Below, piece after piece: positions 6,284 through 20,703 of a stretch of 21,124 nt of DNA. The position numbers were made by a program, and so were the translations under genes. The first letter of the stretch is position 1, and each line of letters opens with the position of its first letter. The DNA is from a virus, in IMG/VR virus record IMGVR_UViG_3300023198_001039, positions 1 through 21,124 of that record; one strand, written 5' to 3'. The notes under the pieces are model-generated. The model was not told the origin of the DNA. It ran no database searches and worked only from the letters and a program-made list of their open reading frames with translations.

Positions 6284-6610
6284 TTATCCTATCGGTATCT
6301 CTGGTACTCTTAAAGGTGCTGATAATCCCCCAGGCTTTCCAACATTACTACCAAACCCTGAAGATCCCATAGTAAGCCCTAACTGCCCAATTCCCTGTAA
6401 AATAGCAGGCCCTGTTAAGTTAGGTGTGATTATTTTTTCACGTTTAGCAGGCCCAAAGTTCAAACCTATCGCCCTTTCAATGGCGTTTCGCCTAGCAATT
6501 TTCTGCTGTCGTTCAATCTCTGCTTTCCTAGCTTTTTCTTGCTCTTTAGCAGATAACACGCTACCTAATAATTGTGTTCCCGCTGCTGCTGCAATTAATG
6601 GTAATCCCAT
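6284..6610 (-). CDS. small amphipathic virion protein candidate (108 aa)
   Basis: Residues 3-20 are Ala/Leu-rich and hydrophobic (LPLIAAAAGTQLLGSVL). A strongly charged helix follows (about 21-48, KEQEKARKAEIERQQKIARR), then a Gly/Pro-rich tail. This hydrophobic-then-charged layout recalls the small internal virion proteins of T7-like phages (gp14 type), but homology cannot be claimed. An AAGGAG site six bases before the ATG supports the start. It is followed three bases later by the next coiled-coil gene. Confidence 0.6.
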   Translation of the reverse strand: MGLPLIAAAAGTQLLGSVLSAKEQEKARKAEIERQQKIARRNAIERAIGLNFGPAKREKIITPNLTGPAILQGIGQLGLTMGSSGFGSNVGKPGGLSAPLRVPEIPIG

Positions 6611-6619
6611 AATTTCTCC

Positions 6620-7789
6620 TTAAAATCCTGTAAATCTTCCTTCAGTTTTTTCTATAAACTCTTCGGCGGGAGTTTTTTTCTCTTCCCTCCCCGGTAAAGG
6701 GCCACCAGGAGTAGCGTTTATTTCTAGGCTCGTTAAAATCTGACCGAACAATTCAACGTCCTCGGCTTTAGTAAGATCTAGGTTTTCCATCGCCGATACT
6801 ATTATTGCCTTTTGAACATCTGAAGTTATCTTGTCACCAAATAAATCAGCCTCTAAATCCTGCCCTCTTAGTGTAGTAGCTTCCCTATTAGCGGCGATTG
6901 CTTCTTGACTTTCAAGCTGTCTATGGACTATATTTCTTTGAACCAGCTGCCCGCGCTCATCAATATCAAAACCCCTCTCAGCTAACACCTGTTGTATATC
7001 CTGACCTCTTCTAGTGGCCTCTATCTGTGCGTTAGCTATTTCTTTCTGCGCTTCCTGCCCACTTAAGGTTGCCCCTATCTGCCCGAGTCCAAGCTCTTTC
7101 TGTATTTCCTGACCACTTAGGGCTGCCCCTATCTGCCCGAGTCCAAGCTCTTTCTGAACCCCTAACCCCTCCCTCTGAACGTCTCTACCTAAATCTGCTT
7201 GCTCACCTATGAATTGTCTTTCCTTTTCGGCTTCACCTGATAACCTCTGCTGTTCTAGTTCACCAATATTTATACCTGTTAACTGTTGTCCAGCAGCCTG
7301 CCTAATATCCTGTTCAGCACCTCTTATTCTCGCTCCTTGTATTCCTGCGTCACTAATACCCTGTGCCCCTAACTGTCTTTTAATAGCCTCAACCCTTGCT
7401 TGCTCGGCTTTTGAAGCGTCCGCTCTCACCTGTTGTCTTTGCAAATCTGCTACTGTGGGCTCTGGCAACTGTCGAGGATTAGCAGCCCTATCTATAGCCT
7501 CTGCCCTTTGCTCTGTCATCCCTATGCCCGTTTCTTTCGGCACTTGAGGTCTGGGTAATACTGTTACTATAGATTTCCCAGGAAACCTATCAACCTCTTT
7601 TGGAACTATAGGTTTAGGTAATACCGTAGATGTTCCAGGTAATGGAGGGGGATTAGTAGGAGTAGGAGTAGGAGGGGGAGGAATTTTCCCAACCCTAGTT
7701 ACTGCTTTTGTTCTATTTGCTTCCTCCGTCAACGTCTGCCCTCCTGCGGGTAGTATCGATTTTGGTAATGTAGGGAAATTTATAGCCAT
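6620..7789 (-). CDS. proline-rich, repeat-containing coiled-coil virion protein
   Basis: The 389-residue product has three zones. Residues 1-90 are proline-rich, with a run PPPPTPTPTNPPPLP (37-51) and two copies of TVLPxPxVPKE at 55-65 and 76-86. Residues about 91-205 are a Gln/Arg/Ala-rich helix. Residues 209-280 are four tandem 18-residue units of the type QEIQKELGLGQIGATLSG, the first two nearly identical. The tail (about 320-389) is acidic. Such proteins are common between the tail-hub and ejection genes of short-tailed phages and may span or plug the tail, but no Pfam family is recognised. The start shares one base with the stop of the tail gene (TAATG). Confidence 0.65.
   Translation of the reverse strand: MAINFPTLPKSILPAGGQTLTEEANRTKAVTRVGKIPPPPTPTPTNPPPLPGTSTVLPKPIVPKEVDRFPGKSIVTVLPRPQVPKETGIGMTEQRAEAIDRAANPRQLPEPTVADLQRQQVRADASKAEQARVEAIKRQLGAQGISDAGIQGARIRGAEQDIRQAAGQQLTGINIGELEQQRLSGEAEKERQFIGEQADLGRDVQREGLGVQKELGLGQIGAALSGQEIQKELGLGQIGATLSGQEAQKEIANAQIEATRRGQDIQQVLAERGFDIDERGQLVQRNIVHRQLESQEAIAANREATTLRGQDLEADLFGDKITSDVQKAIIVSAMENLDLTKAEDVELFGQILTSLEINATPGGPLPGREEKKTPAEEFIEKTEGRFTGF
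7049..7156 (-). repeat. 54-bp tandem duplication within the coiled-coil gene
   Basis: Two head-to-tail 54-bp copies (7049-7102 and 7103-7156) match at 48 of 54 positions by my count, including an identical 32-bp block at 7071-7102 and 7125-7156. Each encodes one 18-residue protein unit. Two more divergent units continue toward lower coordinates and are recognisable only at the protein level. The near-identity of two units suggests a recent duplication in an older repeat array. Confidence 0.9.
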
Positions 7790-9645
7790 TAGTTTCTTAA
7801 TCCTCTTAAATTGTAAACAAGTTCTATTTTTCTGATTGCATACGGTTGATCTATTGCGGAATTATTATATTTAAACTGTATATTACGTCCTTGCTCATTA
7901 CCTAACCTAACCTTTACTATTTTAGTTGCCTCAGCTCCTGCCGCTGTCAGGTCAATAGAGTAGGTGTTTACCTGGAGTGTATCAATATATGTTGTCATTA
8001 CTATAGAATATGCAGCCGTGTCAACCGTTATATATATCCATCTAAAATCTTTCCAATTATCTTCATGTCCTTTTTTACCCTGATAAGGTGCTGTTTTGGC
8101 CGTTGCTGTTATTTTATCCAGCCCGTCCGCCGTCCCTGTGTCTAACTGAAGTATATGCCCGATCACCGAACTCTTAGAGCCATATAACTTATCTTCATGG
8201 GTTGCAAACTGACTTATCAAATTAGTTCCGGACGGAATAAATTTCGACCAAGCACCCTTTTTTCGATTACCAGAATTTAATAAAACAAAATCATAGACAT
8301 AGAATATATCATTTATTGTGTTCCCAGAACTTGGAACACTAAACCACACCCGATTCTCCCACGTAATAGCACAAGCATTTTTTAAATAATCCTTTGCTAA
8401 GTTTAAAACGTCTGGCTCAATAGCATCACTAATAGAATCCTCTGAAGTTGTGCCCGCTATTGATTCGGATGGGTTTATTACTACGCCTCCGCCTTTCCAT
8501 GCATGGATAGCGTCATGGTTCAACATCGTTACTAACCCACTATAATTTACCATTGCCCTATGAGAATCACTCCCAACATCGTCTGCAAACTTTTTTAAAT
8601 ACCAATTCGCTGGATCACTGTTTGTTGTGGGGTCGCCTATTTGTAACACATATACGGCAGTTCTGCCGCTAAAATCTGACTTAGATATTACTATATTTCC
8701 ATCTTGTTCAACAATGCCAGATATATCAAGGCCATCACCTCGACCAACCCGAATAAAGTTTACAGCGGGAAATTGTTCGGGCTGATTAATATTTGAATAC
8801 CATAGATAATCTTTGTTGGAATCACCAGCACCCCACATCCTCCCATTTGCAGGAAACATATATTTAAAAAACCTTGGCTGTCCGTTATCAGTGGGTGCTA
8901 GGTTTTCCAGGCTACTATCAGCTACGTTATCAGTAAAAGAGGTAACACCATTAGAAACATCAGTTAAATACCAATAAGCACCTTCAACTTGTGCAGTATT
9001 TCTATATACCTTCCAGTAGGAAATTCCCGCACTAACAGGAGCAGTGACAATGCTTCCCACTACCACACTTTCACCTACGGCAGCATGAGTCACGGATGCG
9101 CTGTTATAATCACCTTCGGCTAGATAACTATTCACACCCAGATATACCCATGTGTATGAACCTGTTAAATTCCCCGCTGTGGCATTAGTAGCTACTGTTA
9201 ATACGCCTGAAGGTGCGGACACTCCCATCTGAGTAAACTCGTTTCCATTGAATTTGTAAGGCTTCACATTTCCGTTGGAAAAGAAAAGAAGCTCGTTTTG
9301 TTGCTTCATTTCTATGGGAGTGTTCGCCGTCCAGACCGTGACACTGGACGCAATGTCATTAAATGCTGTAGCCGCCCCTGTGGCCACCGCTGCTCTACCA
9401 TTACATACAGCCACTAATTGAGCAGACATAGTAGAGGGTTTATAACTAAATACACCATCTACAACAGCCGCACCGAGACTGTCAGAATTTAACTTAGCAG
9501 ATCCTTTTCTGGTTTTAAAGGCTCCATAGTCATCAAAAACAATATTATCAGCTTGTACTAATTGATGTAAAGGCACGTTTAACGCCTGTGCCTTGGTGTT
9601 CAATCCACCGTCAAACGCATCTGTTCCGACTTGGAATTTAGCCAC
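7789..9645 (-). CDS. tail hub/nozzle-type (stabilization) tail protein
   Basis: The 618-residue protein starts MAKFQVGTDAFDGGLNTKAQ and continues with LVQADNIVFDDYGAFKTRKG. This opening (F-x-GG-L-N, a stretch about N-positioned residues, then a rules-for-zero-point K-T-R-x-G) is typical of large beta-rich tail proteins that follow the head-tail adaptor in short-tailed phages, comparable in role to T7 gp12 or P22 gp10. The body is Ser/Thr/Asn/Gly-rich beta sequence with aromatic repeats, as in a beta-propeller. No enzyme motif is seen. It overlaps the adaptor gene by eight bases and the next gene by one. Assignment to a specific family needs a profile search. Confidence 0.65.
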   Translation of the reverse strand: MAKFQVGTDAFDGGLNTKAQALNVPLHQLVQADNIVFDDYGAFKTRKGSAKLNSDSLGAAVVDGVFSYKPSTMSAQLVAVCNGRAAVATGAATAFNDIASSVTVWTANTPIEMKQQNELLFFSNGNVKPYKFNGNEFTQMGVSAPSGVLTVATNATAGNLTGSYTWVYLGVNSYLAEGDYNSASVTHAAVGESVVVGSIVTAPVSAGISYWKVYRNTAQVEGAYWYLTDVSNGVTSFTDNVADSSLENLAPTDNGQPRFFKYMFPANGRMWGAGDSNKDYLWYSNINQPEQFPAVNFIRVGRGDGLDISGIVEQDGNIVISKSDFSGRTAVYVLQIGDPTTNSDPANWYLKKFADDVGSDSHRAMVNYSGLVTMLNHDAIHAWKGGGVVINPSESIAGTTSEDSISDAIEPDVLNLAKDYLKNACAITWENRVWFSVPSSGNTINDIFYVYDFVLLNSGNRKKGAWSKFIPSGTNLISQFATHEDKLYGSKSSVIGHILQLDTGTADGLDKITATAKTAPYQGKKGHEDNWKDFRWIYITVDTAAYSIVMTTYIDTLQVNTYSIDLTAAGAEATKIVKVRLGNEQGRNIQFKYNNSAIDQPYAIRKIELVYNLRGLRN

Positions 9646-10312
9646 GAAATATCTCCCAAAAATCAGAACCTATCTGATCATCAGGATATAACTGCTCATC
9701 CCTTACCGTGTCATACCTATCATAATCTTCCTCATCACTAGCAATACTCCTAGCCCTTTGAATATTTTCGTCCCATTTTTGCTTATATACAGGTACTAAT
9801 TGATTTTCAGTGTCTTTGAGCATACACCTTAAGACACTATAATCTGGTATCATTTGCTGTATTGCTACATTGTGAATCGAAAATAAAGTGCTTGCCGTTG
9901 TTATCTGAGCAGGTGCTTCCATAAACTCGAAATACAGTTCTTTCGCTTCCTCAGGAGTGGGGTACAGTGTAACATTTGTCCCCCATTGTTTATATACTTC
10001 TGGTTTGCCTGCAGTGACCGTCCCGCCGTAGGTTGTGCCGTTAAGTAAGTCGATTTCCCTGGCGGTTGACCTTTTTAATGGTCTACCATCATAAGTCACC
10101 CTTGTGATCCTCAGAGAATCATCAGGAGTTGTATAAACCGAGGTGTCCGTTATTGTGGTATGAGCTGTTACTGCTTGTTCATATCCTACTATTGCACATA
10201 GTTGGTTCTCAGCCTCCCACATGTAAGCATATATTTCGGCATCACTCCAAAAGTTTGCCGTAGTCTCATTTATCTGGTTTCTTACCAGACTTAGCGCTTC
10301 TGCTGGGGTCAT
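9638..10312 (-). CDS. head-to-tail adaptor (connector) protein
   Basis: The 224-residue protein begins with the helical pattern MTPAEALSLVRNQINETTANFWSD, followed by EIYAYMWEAENQL. This resembles adaptor proteins that dock under the portal ring in podoviruses and some siphoviruses. A middle beta region (about 65-130) carries the recurrent features TPDDSLRITRVTYDGRPLK and VTLYPTPEEA. The C-terminal helices end in a Trp/Phe-containing tail. An AAAGGGG site precedes the ATG. Its position directly before the tail-hub gene supports the role of joining portal to tail. Confidence 0.7.
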   Translation of the reverse strand: MTPAEALSLVRNQINETTANFWSDAEIYAYMWEAENQLCAIVGYEQAVTAHTTITDTSVYTTPDDSLRITRVTYDGRPLKRSTAREIDLLNGTTYGGTVTAGKPEVYKQWGTNVTLYPTPEEAKELYFEFMEAPAQITTASTLFSIHNVAIQQMIPDYSVLRCMLKDTENQLVPVYKQKWDENIQRARSIASDEEDYDRYDTVRDEQLYPDDQIGSDFWEIFRG

Positions 10313-10331: not shown

Positions 10332-10682
10332 TTAAGCAGGTTTCGGTGCAGGCTCCGCCTTTCCATGTTTTTTTCCAGTGTGTCCGCCAAGCGCCCGCTT
10401 GGATGTGAAACGTTCACCGCACATATTACATATAAATTCCTGTTTTTCCTCTATATTCCCATCATTAACATCTTCAGCCAATAGGTTTTTAATGTTTTCA
10501 GGGTTATCGGGAAATTCAGGATCAAAGTGAGTCGGAGCACCTAAAAAATCAACAGTCCACCGCCTGCCTCTCACAATAGAGCCATGAGGGGGAATGGTAA
10601 TCTCTTCGCCTTTAAATTCCTGAGTAAATACGGTATCTGCCCGATTCCATATTCTTCTCATTTGTTTGTCACGGTTTGGCAT
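10332..10682 (-). CDS. small head-module protein with C-terminal C2H2 zinc finger
   Basis: Residues 83-106 read FICNMCGERFTSKRALGGHT and continue to H106, giving C85-x2-C88-x12-H101-x4-H106, a complete classical C2H2 zinc-finger pattern with the hydrophobic positions (F92, L98) also in place. The N-terminal 70 residues (about IWNRADTVFTQEFKGEEITIPPHG) form a small beta domain of the kind often found in short phage head-completion proteins. A basic/proline tail follows. AAGGAG lies upstream of the ATG. The finger could bind DNA or simply stabilise a small virion protein. C2H2 fingers occur in a minority of phage structural-region genes, and the function is unknown. Confidence 0.75.
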   Translation of the reverse strand: MPNRDKQMRRIWNRADTVFTQEFKGEEITIPPHGSIVRGRRWTVDFLGAPTHFDPEFPDNPENIKNLLAEDVNDGNIEEKQEFICNMCGERFTSKRALGGHTGKKHGKAEPAPKPA

Positions 10683-10691
10683 ATACTCTCC

Positions 10692-11045
10692 TTATTTCAT
10701 GTTATGAATTAATACATCATAGCCATCGGTTGCCGCCGATGTGAATGCTACTTGCATCCAGTTATACCCCTCTACGGGACATATCGCATTATAATTGCCA
10801 CTTGTAGCCGGTATTGCCCAATCGGTAACGAAACTATTTCCCATTACCTTGAGAGTCCTAAAAGTATCAGCAGAATCCTGAGCTACCTTAACACTCAACC
10901 CCACAGTTGCAGCACCAAAGAGAGAATTAAAAGCAGGAACCTCAATTCCTATCTTATTCATTTCCCCAATAAAAACCGCTGTGGAAACACTAGCTGCACT
11001 TGCTACATTGACAGTTGTTGATTTGTGATGTGCAAAGCCATACAT
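10692..11045 (-). CDS. small hypothetical virion protein (117 aa)
   Basis: The protein is beta-prone and rich in Ala, Val, Ser and Thr, without cysteine clusters or a membrane segment. It ends SAATDGYDVLIHNMK, loosely like the end of the preceding 86-residue protein (GASGDGFDVWVMGN), so the two may be distant paralogues with an immunoglobulin-like or other beta-sandwich fold. Its start lies one base after the stop of that neighbour, without a strong ribosome-binding site, suggesting reinitiation. Head decoration or head-completion roles are plausible by position. Confidence 0.65.
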   Translation of the reverse strand: MYGFAHHKSTTVNVASAASVSTAVFIGEMNKIGIEVPAFNSLFGAATVGLSVKVAQDSADTFRTLKVMGNSFVTDWAIPATSGNYNAICPVEGYNWMQVAFTSAATDGYDVLIHNMK

Positions 11046-11046
11046 A

Positions 11047-11307
11047 TTAATTACCCATCACCCAAACATCAAACCCATCACCAGAAGCACCTGAACCGAT
11101 CCTCACATTTCCGCTGGTATGGTTTTTTGATGCACCAAAGCCACCAGTAGCAACACTAATTGGCGTGACACCAAAGGCTATTACATTATTTAACCCAAAA
11201 TTAGCCACACCACTAGCAGCGTCAAGTGTGACAACAGCTTCTTTGAATACCAAAGAGCCCACTACATCACGAGGTTTCTGTGCGTTTATCGTTACTGTTG
11301 CAGCCAT
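11047..11307 (-). CDS. small hypothetical virion protein (86 aa)
   Basis: The product begins MAATVTINAQKPRDVVGSLV and alternates hydrophobic and small residues as beta strands, ending GDGFDVWVMGN. No family is recognised. AAAAAGGAG precedes the ATG, and the ATG overlaps the stop of the 40-codon gene upstream by one base (TAATG). The late-operon position between capsid and adaptor genes suggests a minor head protein. Confidence 0.65.
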   Translation of the reverse strand: MAATVTINAQKPRDVVGSLVFKEAVVTLDAASGVANFGLNNVIAFGVTPISVATGGFGASKNHTSGNVRIGSGASGDGFDVWVMGN

Positions 11308-11438: not shown

Positions 11439-12647
11439 TTAAAAGAGTGTCATTAATTGTTTTTTGTTCTTAAGTATTTTGGGTAACTCACGGTGTAGAT
11501 TGTATTCAGCTATAAACTCTCTTAACGTCCGCTGTCTGATTTGAATTATATTACCTTCAGGATATGAACCTAATATACCACCCTCGGTACAATTTACAAA
11601 GCTATGGATAGTATTACCATGTCCACCCATCGCTATAAATTCAAACCATGTCTTAAAACCATAGTAACTTTGCCAAGTCTCTTGCTTTTGACCGTAAACA
11701 TCAACACATGGGATTGTCCCGGTACATTGAGCATCATAAGGCGAATCCCATGAGTGAAATTTCTTGTCTTTAAAACTAAAGTCCGCACCTATAAAAACTA
11801 TCGGACTCCCACCAAGTATGGCCCTAGCGTGATAGAGGCAAGCCCCTAAAGTATTACCACCAGTCTGATATACTACCCGAAAGTCTTTAATTTCAGGACA
11901 CTCTTTAGATACCTCACCATTCATACCTTGTAAAACTGTGTCAAACCATAATACACGCCCCTGCCACCTCTTTATTAGTTCAGGATTGCTATTCAATGCG
12001 GTTACTAGGGTTTTATCTTTTGTCCTATCCCAGAAATTACACTTATCTAGGTAAGCTGTCTTATTTGCTATTGATAACCCTTTTATCTTCTTATATATAT
12101 CTGTAAACCCTTCCGCCGCTTCTGGTATTGTAATGTCCCCAGCGTCCAGGTTCAGATAATAATCGGCCTTGACTCCGATTTCTTCAAAGTATCCAAAATT
12201 GTGTAAAGTACTTACTAGTCCAATATCGCCCCTGTCCTTTAATTGCTCGGCGTTTTTCTTTAAGCTTGGCCCACTCCCTGCTATGATTACAGGTTTAAAC
12301 GCGAACTTACCATAATCTAGCATTACGTTATTCTTTAATACATCATAACTTCTGAGATTATTTGTTTTATTTTTTAGCCACTCATCCCACCATGTTTTAA
12401 TAGTAATAGCATCAGCAGCACTATATGTCTGTTGCATACCCTGTTGAGTCATTGGTGGTCTTGCTATTGGTGCCTGGAAAACCAGATCGACCACAGCTTG
12501 ACTATCTGTTACCTGTCTAAAGGTTTTTAAATGTGCCTGAAAGGCGTTTACATCCTCAAACACCTGTTTAGTAATCGGGCAGACATAATGAGCGATAGGG
12601 GGAGTTTTAATCCCCTTCTCGCTCTTACTTTTTACCTTGTTTACCAT
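11439..12647 (-). CDS. DUF115 / MptE-like (MAF-type) Rossmann-fold protein in the head module
   Basis: The 402-residue protein carries the signature series of the DUF115 family, which includes flagellin glycosyltransferase-like Maf proteins and archaeal MptE 6-hydroxymethylpterin diphosphokinases. These are KPVIIAGSGPSLKKN (118-132), ADYYLNLDAGD (161-171), GGNTLGACLYHARAILGG (263-280), IVFIGADFSF (283-292) and VNCTEGGILG (351-360). The order and spacing fit a full-length domain. Residues 21-43 (YVCPITKQVFEDVNAFQAHL, then KTF) keep the C2H2 finger register, with T26 and F43 in place of the second Cys and second His, and look like a decayed finger. Its location between decoration-like and minor head genes is unusual. 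It may modify a virion or host molecule, but the substrate is unknown. The ATG follows the upstream stop directly and has no clear ribosome-binding site. Confidence 0.75.
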   Translation of the reverse strand: MVNKVKSKSEKGIKTPPIAHYVCPITKQVFEDVNAFQAHLKTFRQVTDSQAVVDLVFQAPIARPPMTQQGMQQTYSAADAITIKTWWDEWLKNKTNNLRSYDVLKNNVMLDYGKFAFKPVIIAGSGPSLKKNAEQLKDRGDIGLVSTLHNFGYFEEIGVKADYYLNLDAGDITIPEAAEGFTDIYKKIKGLSIANKTAYLDKCNFWDRTKDKTLVTALNSNPELIKRWQGRVLWFDTVLQGMNGEVSKECPEIKDFRVVYQTGGNTLGACLYHARAILGGSPIVFIGADFSFKDKKFHSWDSPYDAQCTGTIPCVDVYGQKQETWQSYYGFKTWFEFIAMGGHGNTIHSFVNCTEGGILGSYPEGNIIQIRQRTLREFIAEYNLHRELPKILKNKKQLMTLF

Positions 12648-13136
12648 CTATTTTATGTAAACGGTTCCCGCTACACCAGTCGCAGCAGCTTGTACACACT
12701 GACCCAGGGGGACAGGGGCATTTGCTACATTTGACCATGTAGTAAGGTCACTGATTCGGCCTAAGTTACCTGTATTGGAAGTCTGAACCATATACAGATA
12801 ATCATTCAAGGCTATACCAGTGTTTAATCCTGCACTAGCTTTCGCATATCCCCTAGTGAGAATCCAGCCATATTCACCCGCTGGGATGTCTACATGCTGA
12901 GTTACTCCAAAGGGATCAAGCGTTCCGTCACTTACCGGCCCTGACATAGTTACAGTGTAACCAGTTGCAGACGATAAAGCTACGGCATACCCAACTAACG
13001 CAGTAACACCTGTTTTTACATAACAATAACAATACTCATTGCCACCAGCCAAGACCCTATCGCCTAAATTAGCAACGGGAACGGCGGTCACGTGAGAAAT
13101 GCTTTTGTTTAATGTTGGTCTAAATCCTGTACTCAT
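12648..13136 (-). CDS. head decoration-like protein
   Basis: The 162-residue protein follows the capsid gene after nine bases, with AGGAGT before its ATG. It is beta-rich and includes VPVANLGDRVLAGGNEYCY, a central LDPFGVTQHVDIPAGEYGWI segment and a GQCVQAAATGVAGTVYIK end. This composition and position match small capsid-stabilising or decoration proteins encoded just after the major capsid protein. No specific family can be named with certainty. Confidence 0.6.
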   Translation of the reverse strand: MSTGFRPTLNKSISHVTAVPVANLGDRVLAGGNEYCYCYVKTGVTALVGYAVALSSATGYTVTMSGPVSDGTLDPFGVTQHVDIPAGEYGWILTRGYAKASAGLNTGIALNDYLYMVQTSNTGNLGRISDLTTWSNVANAPVPLGQCVQAAATGVAGTVYIK

Positions 13137-13145
13137 AATAAACTC

Positions 13146-14057
13146 CTATAGGTTAGACATTACACCGGACATACGGCAGTTAGAATGAGTTAAAGCACCC
13201 GCCCAAAAGATATGAGCAATCATAGCATCCTGATTAGTAGGTTGCTGAAAAGGTGTTAACTTGAAGTTACGCTTAGTGGCATATTTCAGCGAAACGTAAT
13301 CTTCATTTATCATATACAGATATCCACTGTCTACATGACTATCTACAATGACAGGAATCCCATTCCACATAATGGAAGTGAAACCGGCTTTAATAGTATC
13401 CGAATCGCCAAATCTCTGTTGAGGCTGGATAAGTGAATGCATATCATCATATAAGTCTTGTGTTGTGAATATAACTGTAGGCCTGTCACTGTCTACCGTA
13501 CAATCACCGAAAAGGCTCTGCATCTTAGCAAGAGAGAGAGTAGCGGTTGTACTATCAACCTGTCCCTGCCACCATGAATAAGAGGCTTTAGCAATTCCAC
13601 CTAGCGTACCAGTGGATGCAGTAGAAAGTTTGAAACCCTGGAACTCTCCAGCAGTCGAACTGTCAGAAAAAAGTGACGTTCCAAGCTTGTCAGACAGTGA
13701 TTTTTCAGCGATCTGCACCTCTGTTTTTACATGAGACAGAATTGCTGATTCGCCAGCGTTTTTAATTGTGTCCAGTCCATCGATACTAATGGGAGCATGG
13801 GCTCTTTTCCATTCGTATTCTGCGGCTGTTTTTTTCGTATTACTGGTAGTCGTTAGTGAAGAAGAGGTTTGCCACTCAGCCTGTGAGTTTTGAGCATACA
13901 ACAAAGGCTGTATAATCTTTGTCCCACCATTCTGAGCACTATACCATTTCTTTTTCGCACGATGTAAACCAGCATTTGATGCAAAGATATTATCTACCAT
14001 CACAGGAATGTATGATTTCTGTGTTACAGCAGTAATATCGTCATATGTTAATGCCAT
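13146..14057 (-). CDS. major capsid protein (HK97-fold)
   Basis: The 303-residue protein is the likely main shell subunit. It begins MALTYDDITAVTQKSYIPVM and continues with DNIFASNAGLHRAKKKWYSA, then an E-loop-like Gly/Gln/Thr-rich stretch (about 42-75). A P-domain spine region follows, and the C-terminal part contains PTVIFTTQDLYDDMHSLIQP, GFTSIMWNGIPVIVDSHV and YLYMINEDYVSLKY (A-domain-like). These are characteristic of phage major capsid proteins of the HK97 fold. Scaffold and decoration-like genes flank it and a strong TAGGAGT precedes the ATG. No prohead protease is seen nearby. Confidence 0.85.
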   Translation of the reverse strand: MALTYDDITAVTQKSYIPVMVDNIFASNAGLHRAKKKWYSAQNGGTKIIQPLLYAQNSQAEWQTSSSLTTTSNTKKTAAEYEWKRAHAPISIDGLDTIKNAGESAILSHVKTEVQIAEKSLSDKLGTSLFSDSSTAGEFQGFKLSTASTGTLGGIAKASYSWWQGQVDSTTATLSLAKMQSLFGDCTVDSDRPTVIFTTQDLYDDMHSLIQPQQRFGDSDTIKAGFTSIMWNGIPVIVDSHVDSGYLYMINEDYVSLKYATKRNFKLTPFQQPTNQDAMIAHIFWAGALTHSNCRMSGVMSNL

Positions 14058-14065
14058 AATTACTC

Positions 14066-14857
14066 CTAGTTATTTAATCCTAAAGTTTGGAGTGCAAAAT
14101 TTTCAGCATCATCGTATGTCTTACCCTTAAATTCATTTGAAACAGCTGGCTTGGTTGCTGACCCTTGAGCTACTACACCGGCTCGGTGTTGCTTCTGGAT
14201 ATTTTCAGTTGCCACTTTTGCCCCGTTGAATTGTGCTTGCTGAGCTACATGGTCAAACCTAAAAGATTTATACGCCTGCTCTGGATTTGTATATCCTTGC
14301 TTGTGCATAAATTGCATAAGTTGTTGTTCAAGATTCCCCTGTGCTGGGTCATTTACAGTTACCCAATCCTCAGTTGAAAATTTTGCCTTAAGGTTTGTCA
14401 TTTCACTAGCTAAAGAGGCATCTGCAGACGCCTGTTCCATAGTAGTAACACGATTTTCCAATTCAGTATTTACCTGATTTGGCTGTGCCTGATTTTGTGC
14501 ACTCATATAGTTTTGATAGGTAGTCTCAAACTGTTGTGCTAGTTCGGGATGTTCCTTTAAAGTATTGTTGAGTTCATTATACTGTTGAAACTGCCCTGAT
14601 AAACGGGCGTTTTCCGTTTCCATAGTGGAAAACTTCTCTTTATTCGCTGAATAAGAATGTCCTAACTGTAATAATTCCTCTAAATGCGCCCTGTCTTTCG
14701 GGACAACTCGCTCACTCCTGAATGTCACTCCGTAGTTATCAGGATTAAAATTATATTTCTCAGGTTGAGAGGCTTCTGTCTGCTCAATCTGATCCGAACC
14801 AGTGTCTGCCGGTTCTATTTCGACAGGGTTTCCCCCGATTGGTTCTAAATCTTCCAT
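14066..14857 (-). CDS. capsid scaffolding protein
   Basis: The 263-residue product lies immediately before the capsid gene. It has an acidic N-terminus (MEDLEPIGGNPVEIEPADTG), a Gln/Glu-rich coiled coil (about 65-165) and a compact C-terminal segment (EFKGKTYDDAENFALQTLGL). This arrangement is typical of scaffolding proteins, in which the C-terminal helix binds coat protein. The ATG lies 16 bases after the preceding stop, with only a weak GGGA ribosome-binding site, so coupling to the small upstream gene is likely. Confidence 0.75.
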   Translation of the reverse strand: MEDLEPIGGNPVEIEPADTGSDQIEQTEASQPEKYNFNPDNYGVTFRSERVVPKDRAHLEELLQLGHSYSANKEKFSTMETENARLSGQFQQYNELNNTLKEHPELAQQFETTYQNYMSAQNQAQPNQVNTELENRVTTMEQASADASLASEMTNLKAKFSTEDWVTVNDPAQGNLEQQLMQFMHKQGYTNPEQAYKSFRFDHVAQQAQFNGAKVATENIQKQHRAGVVAQGSATKPAVSNEFKGKTYDDAENFALQTLGLNN

Positions 14858-15145: not shown

Positions 15146-15439
15146 CTAAATTACTGTTTGTCCTGTTTCTAGTGGTATTTGTCCACCTGCTTCAGGTGCA
15201 GGCACTTCTCCACCCGCCATTCCTTTCATCGCCTCTACTAACTGCTGAAAAGCACCCATTGCCATTTCGGCACCTGGATTACCTTGTTGGGCTTGAGTGT
15301 CAATAAACGCTTGAACCGCTTGCATCCCTTGCGCTAACATTTCCATTCCTCCACCAGCTTCAGGTGTTGCTTCCTCAACAGGTGCTTGAGGTAATGCTTC
15401 ACTTCCTGCTGCCCTTTCTACTGCTCCCATGTCTGCCAT
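15146..15439 (-). CDS. small acidic Met/Gln/Ala-rich hypothetical protein (97 aa)
   Basis: Start chosen at the ATG at 15439 (MADMGAVERAAGSEALPQAP). The frame extends upstream to 15532, but those codons lie inside the portal gene and encode an Arg/Ser-rich stretch unlike the rest. The chosen ATG shares a base with the portal stop (TAATG) and has AAGGAGT upstream. The protein has a Pro/Glu/Gly-rich beginning, a central helix (MEMLAQGMQAVQAFIDTQAQ) and a Gly/Pro-rich end. Similar small acidic proteins often sit between portal and scaffold genes; no domain is recognised. Confidence 0.7.
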   Translation of the reverse strand: MADMGAVERAAGSEALPQAPVEEATPEAGGGMEMLAQGMQAVQAFIDTQAQQGNPGAEMAMGAFQQLVEAMKGMAGGEVPAPEAGGQIPLETGQTVI

Positions 15440-17292
15440 TATTGTACTACTCCTTGTTGTGCTGCTGCCTGCTCGGCGGCCGCTTGTTCTTGTTCTTCCA
15501 CTCTTGCTAATACCTCTTCTGGATTCGGCCAATCATAACTATCTAATAATTCTTTCCTATCTATCGCCCCTCGATCAAATAGCTGTATAGCTCTTTGACC
15601 TTTTTGAGCTTTTTGGAAAGGGAGAGAAGTCCCACTTTTCACCTTAAAATTGAATTGTTTCATATTAGTAGAGGCGTTTCTCGTTTCAGGCGATTTATAC
15701 TCACCCGTCTGTGGGTCAAATTCAGTTACAATTTTAGTCATCTTGTAGCCCACAGTTTCCTCACCCTCTTCAATAGGGTCAATCGTATATTCAATAAAAG
15801 TGGGTCTGTCAGGGATTGGGCCGTCAATTACTTGTTTTCGAACGCCCCTTTCAAATTGCATCATTCTATTTGAGGTCATTCTTCCAAGCTGATTGAGAGA
15901 GTTTTCTAAGTTCCGGTCTTTCAATCTAATACGTGTTTGTGCTGCTTCTTGTAGAGTTTCGATAGCTTCAGCCGCCGTCACTCCTGCTGGTTTGCGCCCT
16001 TGAGTCACTTCCTGCACTCCGCTTTGTGTTTCACCAAGTCTAAGCAACGTCTCTAACCATGTAAACACATAGGCTGGTATAGAAGCTGGAAAGTCCCTTT
16101 TTACTTCACTTCCCGGTTCTTTTTTGATGATAAGACCAATTTTATTAGTAAGACCTTTAGCATTTACTCCTGAAGTTTTGTCTAATATCCATACTGGATT
16201 ACTCATAAGCCTTAGATATTCCATTATAATTTTAGCGGTGCGGTTCACATATGACTGAATTGGCATTAGTGGCCCGACTTCACCTTCACCATAAAAACAG
16301 CGCGGTACTATCGTATCGATAAACTTCACATACGGATTATAAGTATCACCCTCATACGGATTTTCACCGGTCGAGAGTATTAGGTTTTGGTTAGGTAATA
16401 GTGTAGTTAAGTGTCCATTTGGGTATTTTTTCTTTAACACCTTTGTTTCTTTATCTTTCTCACCTTCAATATATTCTTCTAGAACATCGTCAACATACCA
16501 TACTTGCCATCCTGTGGCTACGTTGTTATCGTCCATCATAGTACCATTGCCAGGGTCGTTGCTCTTATTCCTGTCTTGATCAGCTGGGCTCACTAATGTA
16601 ATACCATCACCATATGCACCTTTAGCCTTATCCCCTTGCTTATCATCTCTGGAACCGGAGGTATCAGGCTTTATCTTGTCGGCTAATTTAGGGAATAATC
16701 GCTTCCATTCGCCTACAGTCTTGGTAATCTCTTCAATCGCATATTTGAATTTTCGATCAAAATCAATACACTCTTTGTTTACCCAAAGCTTAGTAATATC
16801 AATCGGTTCATATTCTATATCCCCCAATCCATCTTGCAGGTCTGAGTTCCAGGGCACCTTGAGCACACTAGCATCTCGAATACACATTTCTGTGATTATC
16901 TCTACCATTTTGATAGGCATGGACTGTCTATCCCAGAGAGCTTCAATATTTTCTCCTACCATTTCAGTGAAGTCTATATCTCCAGGTTCTTCGGGTATTA
17001 TTCCAAACTTTGGTTTAGCGTCAGTCATCAATGGCACCACGGTCTGCACCGTTGGACGTACTATATTTATATTTGTCTTGAGAATCTTGTCGGAAGTCGT
17101 TTGCTGGAGCTTGTTGTAATATACTGCATCCTGTGACTTCCATTTCACTTCCCAATCTTTGCGCCATTTGTTTGAGTCAGCATACCAAGATTTTATCATC
17201 TTGATTTCCTGCATCTCCTTTGAATTAGGAGTAGGGCTTGACTGTCCCGCCTCTTTTATTGCGCCTTGATTTAAATCTACTTTCTCTGCCAT
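15439..17292 (-). CDS. portal protein
   Basis: The 617-residue protein should form the ring through which DNA is packaged and ejected. Features typical of podovirus portals include an N-terminal helical segment with W-x(n)-W pairs (KSWYADSNKWRKDWEVKW), NINIVRPTVQTVVPLMTDAK (74-93), then EMCIRDASVLKVPW. The central part has PVWILDKTSGVNAKGL and a helical core with TQSGVQEVTQGRKPAGVTAA, and the C-terminal tail is Gln/Ala-rich. Size and location between terminase and scaffold genes agree. The ATG has a weak ribosome-binding site (AATAGG), and its stop overlaps the next gene. Confidence 0.85.
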   Translation of the reverse strand: MAEKVDLNQGAIKEAGQSSPTPNSKEMQEIKMIKSWYADSNKWRKDWEVKWKSQDAVYYNKLQQTTSDKILKTNINIVRPTVQTVVPLMTDAKPKFGIIPEEPGDIDFTEMVGENIEALWDRQSMPIKMVEIITEMCIRDASVLKVPWNSDLQDGLGDIEYEPIDITKLWVNKECIDFDRKFKYAIEEITKTVGEWKRLFPKLADKIKPDTSGSRDDKQGDKAKGAYGDGITLVSPADQDRNKSNDPGNGTMMDDNNVATGWQVWYVDDVLEEYIEGEKDKETKVLKKKYPNGHLTTLLPNQNLILSTGENPYEGDTYNPYVKFIDTIVPRCFYGEGEVGPLMPIQSYVNRTAKIIMEYLRLMSNPVWILDKTSGVNAKGLTNKIGLIIKKEPGSEVKRDFPASIPAYVFTWLETLLRLGETQSGVQEVTQGRKPAGVTAAEAIETLQEAAQTRIRLKDRNLENSLNQLGRMTSNRMMQFERGVRKQVIDGPIPDRPTFIEYTIDPIEEGEETVGYKMTKIVTEFDPQTGEYKSPETRNASTNMKQFNFKVKSGTSLPFQKAQKGQRAIQLFDRGAIDRKELLDSYDWPNPEEVLARVEEQEQAAAEQAAAQQGVVQ

Positions 17293-17421: not shown

Positions 17422-17683
17422 ATTCCTTTCTAGTCCCAAAATTAGTTAATTTAGCATCCCCTATTGCTTCGGGTCGGCTTCCAGTTCGGTCTTCAATCTT
17501 TGAGCATAAGGTACGCTCATCTGTTTTGCTACCACAATATCCACCGAGTGAGTCGTTATAACCTGATTTGTAAATGCTAAAATTAAACGATTCGTTTTCC
17601 TTTCGCCTTTTACACATAACCTCATTCTCAGGTAGCCATTGTTTTGCATCTTTATCCCAAAGAAATCTTTTACGATATGCCAT
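17414..17683 (-). CDS. small hypothetical phage protein (89 aa) after terminase
   Basis: Start chosen at the ATG at 17683 (MAYRKRFLWDKDAKQWLPEN) because AGGAG lies six bases upstream, inside the end of the terminase gene. A longer start at 17725 would overlap terminase by 56 bases. The beginning, with basic residues then a W-D-x-D-x-K-x-W/L pattern, resembles small proteins encoded near terminase or portal genes in other phages. The rest is polar, with cysteines and many Gly/Ser/Lys. A different frame at 17461-17688 competes for the same DNA but lacks this ribosome-binding site. Function unknown. Confidence 0.6.
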   Translation of the reverse strand: MAYRKRFLWDKDAKQWLPENEVMCKRRKENESFNFSIYKSGYNDSLGGYCGSKTDERTLCSKIEDRTGSRPEAIGDAKLTNFGTRKEYG

Positions 17684-19013
17684 CCCAATCTCCTGCCATA
17701 GCCGTTTCTGTCTCGGTAATGTCATCTAACCCGTACAATTCCTTTTCTTCCTCAAATATCGTGTTGTAAACTTTTGGTTTAAGTGCTTGGTTTCTAGTTC
17801 TCCTAAAAGATTTAGTCATTGTCGTGACATATTCATTCGCTTTCATCAGATGGTTATGATTATCAATCGGATTTTCATCTACATTTTTTTCCTGTCCGTC
17901 ATCTTCTGGGTAATGATAAGTTGCATATTCATCCTCAGTCTCCGGACACTTATTACTGAATATCTTATATTCCCTTGACTTAATCAAGGCATTATGATTA
18001 ATAATTCCATTTTTTATTGAACCTGGCCCTTTTTTAGCCGGTAACACCTTTATTCCTCCACTATTTAGATCGGCAATCCCTTGAGGGTCTTCTGAGTCTG
18101 CATACCAAATATCTATCCCCCATTTGATTTGTAATTCCATACACTTCTCAACCATGCTATCTGTGTCAAGATACGATTCATAAAACTCATCAACTTGGTA
18201 ATCGCCAGTTTTATTCTTACGCATAGCTCTTACTACAACGGCAAAAGGATTTGAGAAACCAAAATCGATACCGCCCACCATAAAGTATTCTCTTGAATTT
18301 GGTACAAAAGGTTCGCAAAAGTTTAGAAAGTCATGTAAGTCAGCATAGACAAGTCCTGCCATTCTCTCGAACTGCCCCAAGTACTTCATTGCAAACACTT
18401 TAGGGTCTAACAGGGAACGCTGTCTTTCAAATTCAGCTTTAGGGAAGAACGGGTTTTCTATTGAGGCAAACTGAAAAAAGTCCACATCTGGACGTTTACC
18501 AGCTTTCCAGGGTTTATAGATATCTTTCCAAAGCCAGTTTAAAGCGTAGGGTGTGGTTGTTAGGTCAATTGGGGCTTCACGGAAAGCGGCACGCCCATAG
18601 ATATTGGTCATAGCTTTACGTTTATACATTCCCGCTTCATCACCCCAAACGTGCTCGCAATTAGTGATACCTTCAATAGCGTCTGGGTCGTGTACTGTCC
18701 TTAGATATATTTTTTTGTCTGCTCCGAGTTCAAATTCTGCTTTACTTGCTTTATATATTCCCATTCCTTTAAAAGTGTCTAAAAAAGCTGGTAAAGTAGC
18801 TTGATAGAAGATTTTAGTGGTGGGGGCTGTGACTAGATAAGAGGCTTTTGCTAGGTGTGGGGCTGTGCGGTGTACTCGATTTCTTGATTTAATTGCACCG
18901 GTAAATGTTTTCCCCCCTTGTATCCCTGAGCATATTACACCTAGTTTTTTTGTGCTTTGGATTGCCAAACGCTGATTCCTATGCAGTTTAACTGTCTTCT
19001 TTTCCGCTATCAT
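17670..19013 (-). CDS. terL: terminase large subunit (packaging ATPase/nuclease)
   Basis: The 447-residue protein powers DNA packaging and cuts the concatemer. The ATPase domain shows a Walker A loop SGIQGGKT (29-36), Walker B HVWGDEAG (121-128, with D125 and E126) and a coupling-type TTTPY (152-156). The C-terminal RNase H-like nuclease has D250 in GGIDFGFSNPF and D306 in WYADSEDP. The third motif reads IDNHNHLMKANEYV, with Lys391 where the family usually has the Asp of the DAxRY motif, while D384 is nearby. An AGGAT site precedes the ATG, which lies 26 bases inside the small-subunit gene. Length is normal for phage large terminases. Confidence 0.9.
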   Translation of the reverse strand: MIAEKKTVKLHRNQRLAIQSTKKLGVICSGIQGGKTFTGAIKSRNRVHRTAPHLAKASYLVTAPTTKIFYQATLPAFLDTFKGMGIYKASKAEFELGADKKIYLRTVHDPDAIEGITNCEHVWGDEAGMYKRKAMTNIYGRAAFREAPIDLTTTPYALNWLWKDIYKPWKAGKRPDVDFFQFASIENPFFPKAEFERQRSLLDPKVFAMKYLGQFERMAGLVYADLHDFLNFCEPFVPNSREYFMVGGIDFGFSNPFAVVVRAMRKNKTGDYQVDEFYESYLDTDSMVEKCMELQIKWGIDIWYADSEDPQGIADLNSGGIKVLPAKKGPGSIKNGIINHNALIKSREYKIFSNKCPETEDEYATYHYPEDDGQEKNVDENPIDNHNHLMKANEYVTTMTKSFRRTRNQALKPKVYNTIFEEEKELYGLDDITETETAMAGDWDGIS

Positions 19014-19820: not shown

Positions 19821-20013
19821 GGGGAAATGTTAGGAGCACCTAAACTTTGCTTGATATCAAGATAATTCTTGACTTTCAGTTGCTTTGGAAGTAGGTTTGG
19901 TGTTGAAAGTGGTTTAAAAGTGGTAATCTCTTTTTATTTAAGCTGGTAGCACCTTGTGTTCATCTGTGGGTTATAACCACTCCCACAGAGCCAGCGTCAA
20001 AAAAGGTGGTAAT
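19821..20013. other. divergent intergenic control region with a 12-bp palindrome
   Basis: This is the only sizeable gap in the window and separates the minus-strand late block from the plus-strand genes. It holds a perfect palindrome CTTGATATCAAG (19850-19861). It also holds a plus-strand CTTGACTTT (19868-19876) that mirrors a minus-strand copy at 19813-19821, a possible operator/-35 arrangement. A plus-strand -10 is not convincing (TAGGTT at 19892-19897 is weak). No RNA gene and no long ORF were found here. Confidence 0.4.
19963..19989 (+). repeat. inverted repeat upstream of the plus-strand gene
   Basis: TCTGTGGG (19963-19970) and CCCACAGA (19982-19989) form an 8-bp perfect stem with an 11-base loop. 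An alternative shorter stem, GTGG with CCAC (19966-19969 and 19977-19980), uses part of the same bases. It lies 24 bases before the start codon, so it may shape the 5' untranslated region. The following bases resemble the end of a tRNA but do not fold as one. Confidence 0.5.
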
Positions 20014-20703
20014 ATGAAGGCATACAAAGTATTTAATAATGACTGGACTTGTAAGGGGTTTCAGTATGAGGTGGGAAAAACTTATAAAATAGATGGTGAA
20101 ATTGATTTGTGTTCAAGAGGGTTTCACGCTTGTAAAAAGCTGGAGGATTGTTTTTCTTACTATGCTTCGGTACAGTGGAATAAAATTGCAGAAGTAAAGT
20201 TATCTGGTACAATTTTAGGAAAAAAGAGTGATAAACAATGTGCTGCTGAAATCACGATTGTTAAAGAGATTGATTTTAATGATATAGGGACTATTATCAG
20301 TGGAACTGCTGACTCATGGGGAACTGCTAACTCAAGGGGAACGGCTTACTCATGGGGGTGCTACGAATGCGAAGGAATATCTAGATCAATCTTCTGCAAC
20401 AATACAACAGGAAAGCTACTATTTTTCAACAAGAAAATAACAGAAGAAAGGTGGGGAAAAATAAATTCAGAATTTAGAACTATAATTAGTGAATGGTATC
20501 CTCAGTTTAACAACCTTAAGGCGTTGTATTTAAAGTCGGGTTCAGTTTGGGAAAAAACACCCATACCTAACTCTATGTCGTTAAGTAAAAAAGAGGCTTG
20601 GCACGATATGCCTATAGAAGCTATCGACTATCTTAAAAAACAAAAAGAATTTGACGCTAAAATTTTTGAAGAGATAACCGGCATCACATTTATTAAGGAG
20701 TAA
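20014..20703 (+). CDS. DUF7666-like accessory protein with 18-bp tandem repeat
   Basis: Start chosen at the ATG at 20014 after AAAAAAGGTGG; the frame also opens at 19954, but those 20 residues cover the hairpin and lack a ribosome-binding site. The 229-residue protein opens with MKAYKVFNNDWTCKGFQYEV then LCSRGFHACKKLEDCFSYYA (32-51), a pattern found at the start of DUF7666-type proteins of phages and mobile elements. Residues 97-114 are three GTAxS(W/R) units. The second half (RSIFCNNTTGKLLFFNKKIT, WYPQFNNLKALY, KEAWHDMPIEAIDYLKKQ, FDAKIFEEITGI) is a conserved tail that I recall from phage hypothetical proteins. The function is unknown. It is followed after one base by the next gene. Confidence 0.65.
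   Translation: MKAYKVFNNDWTCKGFQYEVGKTYKIDGEIDLCSRGFHACKKLEDCFSYYASVQWNKIAEVKLSGTILGKKSDKQCAAEITIVKEIDFNDIGTIISGTADSWGTANSRGTAYSWGCYECEGISRSIFCNNTTGKLLFFNKKITEERWGKINSEFRTIISEWYPQFNNLKALYLKSGSVWEKTPIPNSMSLSKKEAWHDMPIEAIDYLKKQKEFDAKIFEEITGITFIKE
20302..20355 (+). repeat. three tandem 18-bp repeats in the DUF7666-like gene
   Basis: Three adjacent 18-bp units start at 20302, 20320 and 20338 (consensus GGAACTGCTNACTCATGG) and encode GTADSW, GTANSR and GTAYSW. The first differs from the second at two positions, and the third differs from the first at three. Related proteins often carry longer arrays of such short repeats, so this may be a contracted array. Confidence 0.85.

Follow-up and report, generated by a model that had tools for sequence, protein, structure and literature searches.

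Described relatives of the PF01973 family

To our knowledge, few systems have been described in which phage virions are glycosylated. Nonulosonic acids are nine-carbon, sialic-acid-like sugars. Maf uses pseudaminic or legionaminic acid in CMP-activated form to glycosylate serine or threonine, and consists of an N-terminal Rossmann-like domain, a central PF01973 domain that resembles Cst-II, and a C-terminal helical bundle (PMC11339370). The phage protein described here is similar to the Maf of Magnetospirillum magneticum AMB-1 (structure 5mu5) in its PF01973 core, in its fold over 250 residues, and in a GSGPS glycine loop. Unlike Maf, it has 402 rather than 666 amino acids, it lacks the N-terminal Rossmann-like and C-terminal helical domains, and its gene is in a phage capsid module, with no flagellar genes identified among the scanned neighbors. 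Because both flanking domains are missing, the phage protein is classed as Maf-like, not as a Maf. There is also a likeness in genome content – a nonulosonic-acid pathway is found in relatives of this phage, but it is absent from the DNA studied here and from its nearest relatives.

The archaeal MptE/MjHPPK (8sd5) also has a PF01973-type fold, but it is more distant from the phage protein in fold, no sign of pterin metabolism was seen here, and the genes linked with the family in relatives are those for a nonulosonic acid. The GT42 and GT29 sialyltransferases (Cst-I and Cst-II, ST8SiaIII), which use CMP-sialic acid, share the general fold at Z of about 9, but the match is to the core only, with no sequence membership, and fold alone confers no membership in these families.

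Two other systems are comparable in outcome rather than in sequence. In mycobacteriophages, the glycosyltransferases Che8 gp110 and Corndog gp38 modify proteins of both capsid and tail (Freeman et al. 2023, as given in PMC12363180); they too are phage-encoded, and are compared here by that description only, which reports no link to Maf or nonulosonic acid. The VP4 spike of HRPV-1 carries terminal legionaminic acid (PMC6381117), and so places a nonulosonic acid on the particle of a prokaryotic virus, as is proposed here; it differs in that the sugar is part of an N-linked pentasaccharide on the spike of an archaeal pleolipovirus, not on a tailed-phage capsid. BFVD includes PF01973 proteins from uncultured Caudovirales (A0A0F7L3H2, A0A6J5PG89 and others) that have matching predicted folds and are annotated as MptE-like. 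Searches of the open-access literature gave no paper describing a PF01973 gene within the capsid module of a phage.

The PF01973 gene and its neighbors

The window, the 21,124-bp stretch of DNA that was analyzed, is a whole IMG/VR record and is probably a fragment of a larger genome. The PF01973 gene is on the minus strand, with its ATG at 12647 and its stop at 11439; a sequence-only reading of the window had given these coordinates correctly without stating the strand. It had also described the gene as the second after the major capsid gene, which is the case, with one gene (12648–13136) between them. The genes of the module are:

17670–19013, minus strand: terminase large subunit; no NeuB upstream of it in the window, unlike in most relatives
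15439–17292, minus strand: portal protein (phrog_156, E=1.9e-30)
14066–14857, minus strand: scaffold-like protein (synteny; PF06810 below its cutoff)
13146–14057, minus strand: major capsid protein (phrog_9953 'major head protein', E=7.7e-52)
12648–13136, minus strand: decoration-type head protein, 162 aa, candidate acceptor; putative role from position and conservation
11439–12647, minus strand: PF01973 (DUF115/MptE-like, Maf-like) gene, 402 aa, proposed glycosyltransferase from profile and predicted fold
11047–11307, minus strand: s1, conserved 86-aa protein whose gene comes next after PF01973; the other candidate acceptor
10692–11045, minus strand: s2, conserved small protein, 117 aa (synteny)
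10332–10682, minus strand: conserved head-module protein; the window copy has one C-terminal C2H2 zinc-finger motif (aa 83–106)
9638–10312, minus strand: SU10-type head-tail adaptor (PF24175, E=1.4e-15)

The decoration-type, major capsid, scaffold-like, portal and terminase genes are all upstream of the PF01973 gene on the same strand. The intergenic gaps are 9 bp between the capsid and decoration-type genes, 0 bp between the decoration-type and PF01973 genes, and 131 bp between the PF01973 gene and s1. The decoration-type protein of the window had no Pfam or PHROG match, and no flagellin or flagellar genes were identified among the scanned neighbors of the PF01973 gene. Promoter-like sites did not exceed their frequency in shuffled sequences, and no Rfam family was matched. 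Past the terminase genes, on the opposite strand, the window encodes a DUF7666 protein (19954–20703, E=3.6e-30).

The assignment of the protein to DUF115/Maf, originally proposed from sequence motifs, was borne out by a profile search – the match to PF01973 had E=1.2e-15 and 58.1 bits, above the curated cutoff of 34.6. The five motif segments named in that reading were all found in the order given, and are nearly invariant across 68 homologues, all of which match PF01973. The features of the protein, numbered from its N-terminus, are:

12513–12590, minus strand: N-terminal extension (aa 20–45) resembling a degenerate C2H2 finger, recognized by eye; also in L020–L022
11766–12371, minus strand: PF01973 profile match (aa 93–294)
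12261–12278, minus strand: GSGPSL loop (aa 124–129), the first glycine-rich motif; G124, G126 and L129 invariant in the 68 homologues
12135–12164, minus strand: DYYLNLDAGD (aa 162–171); D168 invariant in the 68 homologues
11844–11861, minus strand: GGNTLG (aa 263–268); G263, G264 and G268 invariant in the 68 homologues
11808–11831, minus strand: HARAILGG (aa 273–280)
11772–11792, minus strand: IGADFSF (aa 286–292), followed by an invariant FH (aa 297–298)
11577–11594, minus strand: NCTEGG (aa 352–357); N352 and G357 invariant in the 68 homologues

E355 is present in 67 of the 67 alignment rows that have any residue at that column. The polar residues S146, H149, N150, D168, E176, H298, Y304, D305, Y328 and N352 are invariant in all 68 homologues, and this invariance suggests that the protein is a working enzyme. 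An NCBIfam search with the protein gave no match. Its single PHROGs match was judged meaningless, and a weak profile match to the phiX174 spike protein G, limited to a short GAD..F stretch, was judged to be due to chance.

Predicted fold

The AlphaFold2 model of the window protein, made from the 68-row alignment, had a pLDDT of 92.2 and a pTM of 0.88, and contains a Rossmann-like core with the Maf/MptE topology. When Foldseek was used to compare the model with the PDB, Maf 5mu5 was the first match (E=8.7e-9), followed by ST8SiaIII and MjHPPK/MptE, the last at E=5.6e-4. VIA superposed the model on Maf 5mu5 with Z 21.2 (250 residues, 3.6 A), on MptE (8sd5) with Z 14.0, and on ST8SiaIII, Cst-I and Cst-II with Z of about 9, the range for Cst-II and ST8SiaIII being 9.0–9.5. 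The Maf-like fold covers residues 80–386 of the protein, the only part that aligns to Maf (residues 238–517). A sequence-profile search of solved structures also ranked 5mu5 first, and did so likewise for the divergent PF01973 protein of contig L170 (see below). Maf was closer than MptE in Foldseek, in VIA and in the profile search. Neither of the two outcomes that the sequence-only reading had named as counting against its assignment, a missing DUF115 profile match and a model lacking the Rossmann core, was obtained.

Conserved gene order in a clade of uncultured phages

Single PF01973 sequences detected no relatives. A tblastn search of annotated phages with the window protein found nothing, even at E=10; single-sequence searches of annotated phages with the PF01973 proteins of L014 (against 50,697 phages) and L170 gave no match; and a single-sequence scan of viral contigs with the window protein found none. 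A search seeded with the capsid protein found nine viral loci, seven with a PF01973 gene whose product was 36–43% identical to that of the window; the two without it were short contigs that end early, though L002, described below, has to be set beside this. A profile made from an alignment of the first capsid-seeded loci recovered 142 relatives in viral contigs. The same profile had one match in 84,980 species genomes, on a 3.5-kb MAG contig (L098) that is probably viral; when bacterial Maf comparators were sought through the phylum of that genome, the PF01973 matches were all weak.

The relatives share the order capsid, decoration, PF01973, s1. A second sample was drawn with a capsid-protein profile so as not to select on the PF01973 trait. 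In this sample, the PF01973 gene directly follows the decoration-type gene in 49 of the 49 ingroup records that extend 1 kb or more past the capsid gene. Among the outgroup records with room past the capsid gene, 1 of 22 has a PF01973 gene in that place (L170). The remaining 27 outgroup records have no PF01973 at all; they include five annotated phage genomes, Myxococcus phage Mx9 and Stenotrophomonas phage BUCT555 among them. The PF01973 carriers cluster together in the capsid tree, though the placement of some long branches is unsure. Within this uncultured Caudoviricetes clade, the PF01973 gene belongs to the core of the capsid module.

One exception is L002, a fairly close capsid relative, in which s1 is directly behind the decoration gene with no PF01973 gene between them. 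The end of the L002 contig (7313–7484) is an inverted repeat of part of the capsid gene, a probable assembly chimera, so the PF01973 gene of L002 could be elsewhere. In another record (L074:11324–18407) an insert between s1 and the C2H2-type gene encodes collagen-like proteins with a carbohydrate-binding module (CBM96), and also a LamG/concanavalin-like protein.

Distances between PF01973 proteins, whose mean identity was ca. 48% in the set used for this comparison, correlate with those of the portal (r=0.83), the terminase (0.72) and the capsid protein (0.64), all beyond permutations. These correlations indicate that the PF01973 gene has been inherited together with the structural module.

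The arrangement is also found in very divergent lineages. Of 18 NeuB-carrying viral records outside the clade, only one (G139) has a PF01973 match above cutoff; in it (L330:845–2388) the PF01973 gene directly follows the capsid and decoration genes, and NeuB is in the same record. Its capsid and decoration proteins match the clade profiles at 1e-42 and 7e-9, and its PF01973 protein has no detectable match to the PF01973 profile of the clade. In L170, a phage of the capsid outgroup, a PF01973-methyltransferase fusion (6504–7874) directly follows the decoration gene; no NeuB was seen in its 12-kb record. The recurrence of the position after the decoration gene with such divergent PF01973 proteins argues that the enzyme is tied to the head and is not there by chance.

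Nonulosonic-acid genes in the relatives

If the enzyme works like Maf, CMP-activated nonulosonic acid has to be available. NeuB was present in 34 of 43 records with PF01973 and in none of 28 capsid-related records without the family (Fisher P ca. 3e-12 over all records). In records of at least 30 kb, NeuB was found in 20 of 23 with PF01973 and in none of 12 without (Fisher P ca. 5e-7). Both P values overstate independence, because the records overlap by kinship and a few are nearly redundant; the counts come mainly from one clade and do not represent independent events. A CMP-transferase (CTP_transf_3, PF02348) was present in 25 of the 43 records with PF01973. Of 25 near-complete genomes, 17 had all five core pathway genes; of five outgroup genomes, none did.

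The NCBIfam matches of the pathway proteins are all below the equivalog cutoffs: the NeuB/PseI-type synthase (TIGR03586, E=3e-39; TIGR03569, E=4e-40), the PseB-type dehydratase (TIGR03589, E=1e-68) and the PseH-type acetyltransferase (TIGR03585, E=1e-20). The aminotransferase present is of class III; a DegT-type PseC (PF01041) and PseG (TIGR03590) had no match in 24 genomes. NeuB is on the same strand as the terminase gene and just upstream of it in most genomes of the clade, while a separate operon contains the genes of PseB, CMP-transferase, aminotransferase and PseH type.

In a search seeded with NeuB, 62 of the best 80 viral matches were members of this clade. Outside it, the phages L313 (9998–12884) and L323 (8931–11816) have NeuB 1.1 kb upstream of a gene for an SU10-like adaptor. 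Five large viral contigs outside the clade (L303, L304, L318, L326 and L329) have several nonulosonic-acid genes clustered around NeuB.

Proposed function and alternatives

The protein is probably a Maf-like transferase with a CMP-activated nonulosonic acid as its donor and a head protein as its acceptor; we infer the donor from the fold and the pathway genes of relatives, and the acceptor from gene position. The enzyme, a phage glycosyltransferase of the Maf/sialyltransferase-type fold, would be made in one late operon with the head proteins. It would bind a CMP-activated nonulosonic acid of the pseudaminic or legionaminic kind, and move the sugar onto serine or threonine of a newly made head protein. 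By its position the acceptor would most likely be the decoration-type protein, whose gene is immediately upstream, or else s1, immediately downstream, and the outcome would be a sugar-coated capsid. In most relatives the donor would be made by the phages' own PseB-, aminotransferase-, PseH-, NeuB- and CMP-transferase-type enzymes. The Maf-like fold, together with the sugar-making genes of most relatives, suggests that these viruses probably cover their own particles with sugar. Of the ideas in the sequence-only reading, a sugar modification of virion proteins is the one best supported by the closeness to Maf, the conserved order and the co-encoded pathway. Whether the same account extends to the clade as a whole – a large group of uncultured tailed phages in which self-made CMP-nonulosonic acid is fixed on the capsid by a Maf-like core transferase of the head module, with the arrangement and NeuB present in at least one divergent lineage – is evenly balanced.

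A late Maf-like glycosyltransferase might instead act on tail fibers or on the host surface (flagellin, S-layer or envelope glycan), for example to block superinfection, with its place in the capsid module setting only the timing of expression. Bacterial Maf does act on flagellin, and the transferase and pathway genes are far apart in the genomes. However, host-conversion genes are usually found in variable regions, not fixed within the head module, while the PF01973 gene has a head-type gene immediately on either side in all ingroup records tested and is in the same position again in G139 and L170, which makes an external target unlikely. The fixed position and the co-inheritance with portal and terminase would suit a non-catalytic descendant that now serves in the structure or assembly of the head. 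This is improbable given that the glycine loop and the motif regions have invariant polar residues at a mean protein identity of ca. 48%, and that the donor pathway is co-encoded in relatives.

The other two alternatives concern the substrate. The enzyme could use another nucleotide sugar or other donor, and the nonulosonic-acid genes of the relatives could have another function, for instance in altering the host surface; the phages closest to the window have the transferase without the pathway, and most NeuB phages outside the clade lack a PF01973 match above cutoff. NeuB, though, is within the late structural operon in most genomes of the clade, and the Maf and sialyltransferase folds are those of CMP-sugar enzymes (PMC11339370), so that a different donor seems somewhat less probable even than a non-catalytic head protein. 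Least probable is an MptE-type 6-hydroxymethylpterin pyrophosphokinase for folate or pterin metabolism; the sequence-only reading mentioned pterin biosynthesis for known relatives. The Pfam family name and the rank of MjHPPK as the second-best fold family point that way, but Maf is clearly closer by every comparison above, the linked pathway is that of nonulosonic acid, and a pterin role leaves the fixed place among head genes unexplained.

With a nonulosonic-acid transferase of the head as the preferred reading, a class of protein-glycosylating enzymes would be tied to the capsid module of a whole phage clade, along with a phage-encoded donor pathway. The particles would bear sialic-acid-like sugars, with possible effects on adsorption, particle stability, and recognition by host-surface lectins or immune systems. 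Such phages could be a source of compact Maf-type enzymes for protein glycoengineering, and the finding hints at the role of some phage genes labeled 'MptE-like'.

Phages closest to the window

Neither NeuB nor CTP_transf_3 was found anywhere in the 21-kb window. The usual NeuB slot upstream of the terminase is without NeuB, and the end region past the terminase has no pathway gene. Four records from the same part of the tree (G013, G014, G016 and G017, the last of 34 kb) have no NeuB, and no sugar-nucleotide family was found among the other genes of G017. Since donor genes were not found in this subclade, the donor there would be host-derived, or different; under the preferred reading these phages would use a CMP-sugar of the host. 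The earlier proposal that the enzyme acts on host nucleotide-sugars would accordingly apply at most to this subclade, most relatives encoding their own pathway. G017, a phage of this subclade, also encodes an RtcB-type RNA ligase (L211:8512–9666), and a pooled gene-content scan of G017, G014 and G016 gave one match to an Acb2/Tad1 hairpin domain.
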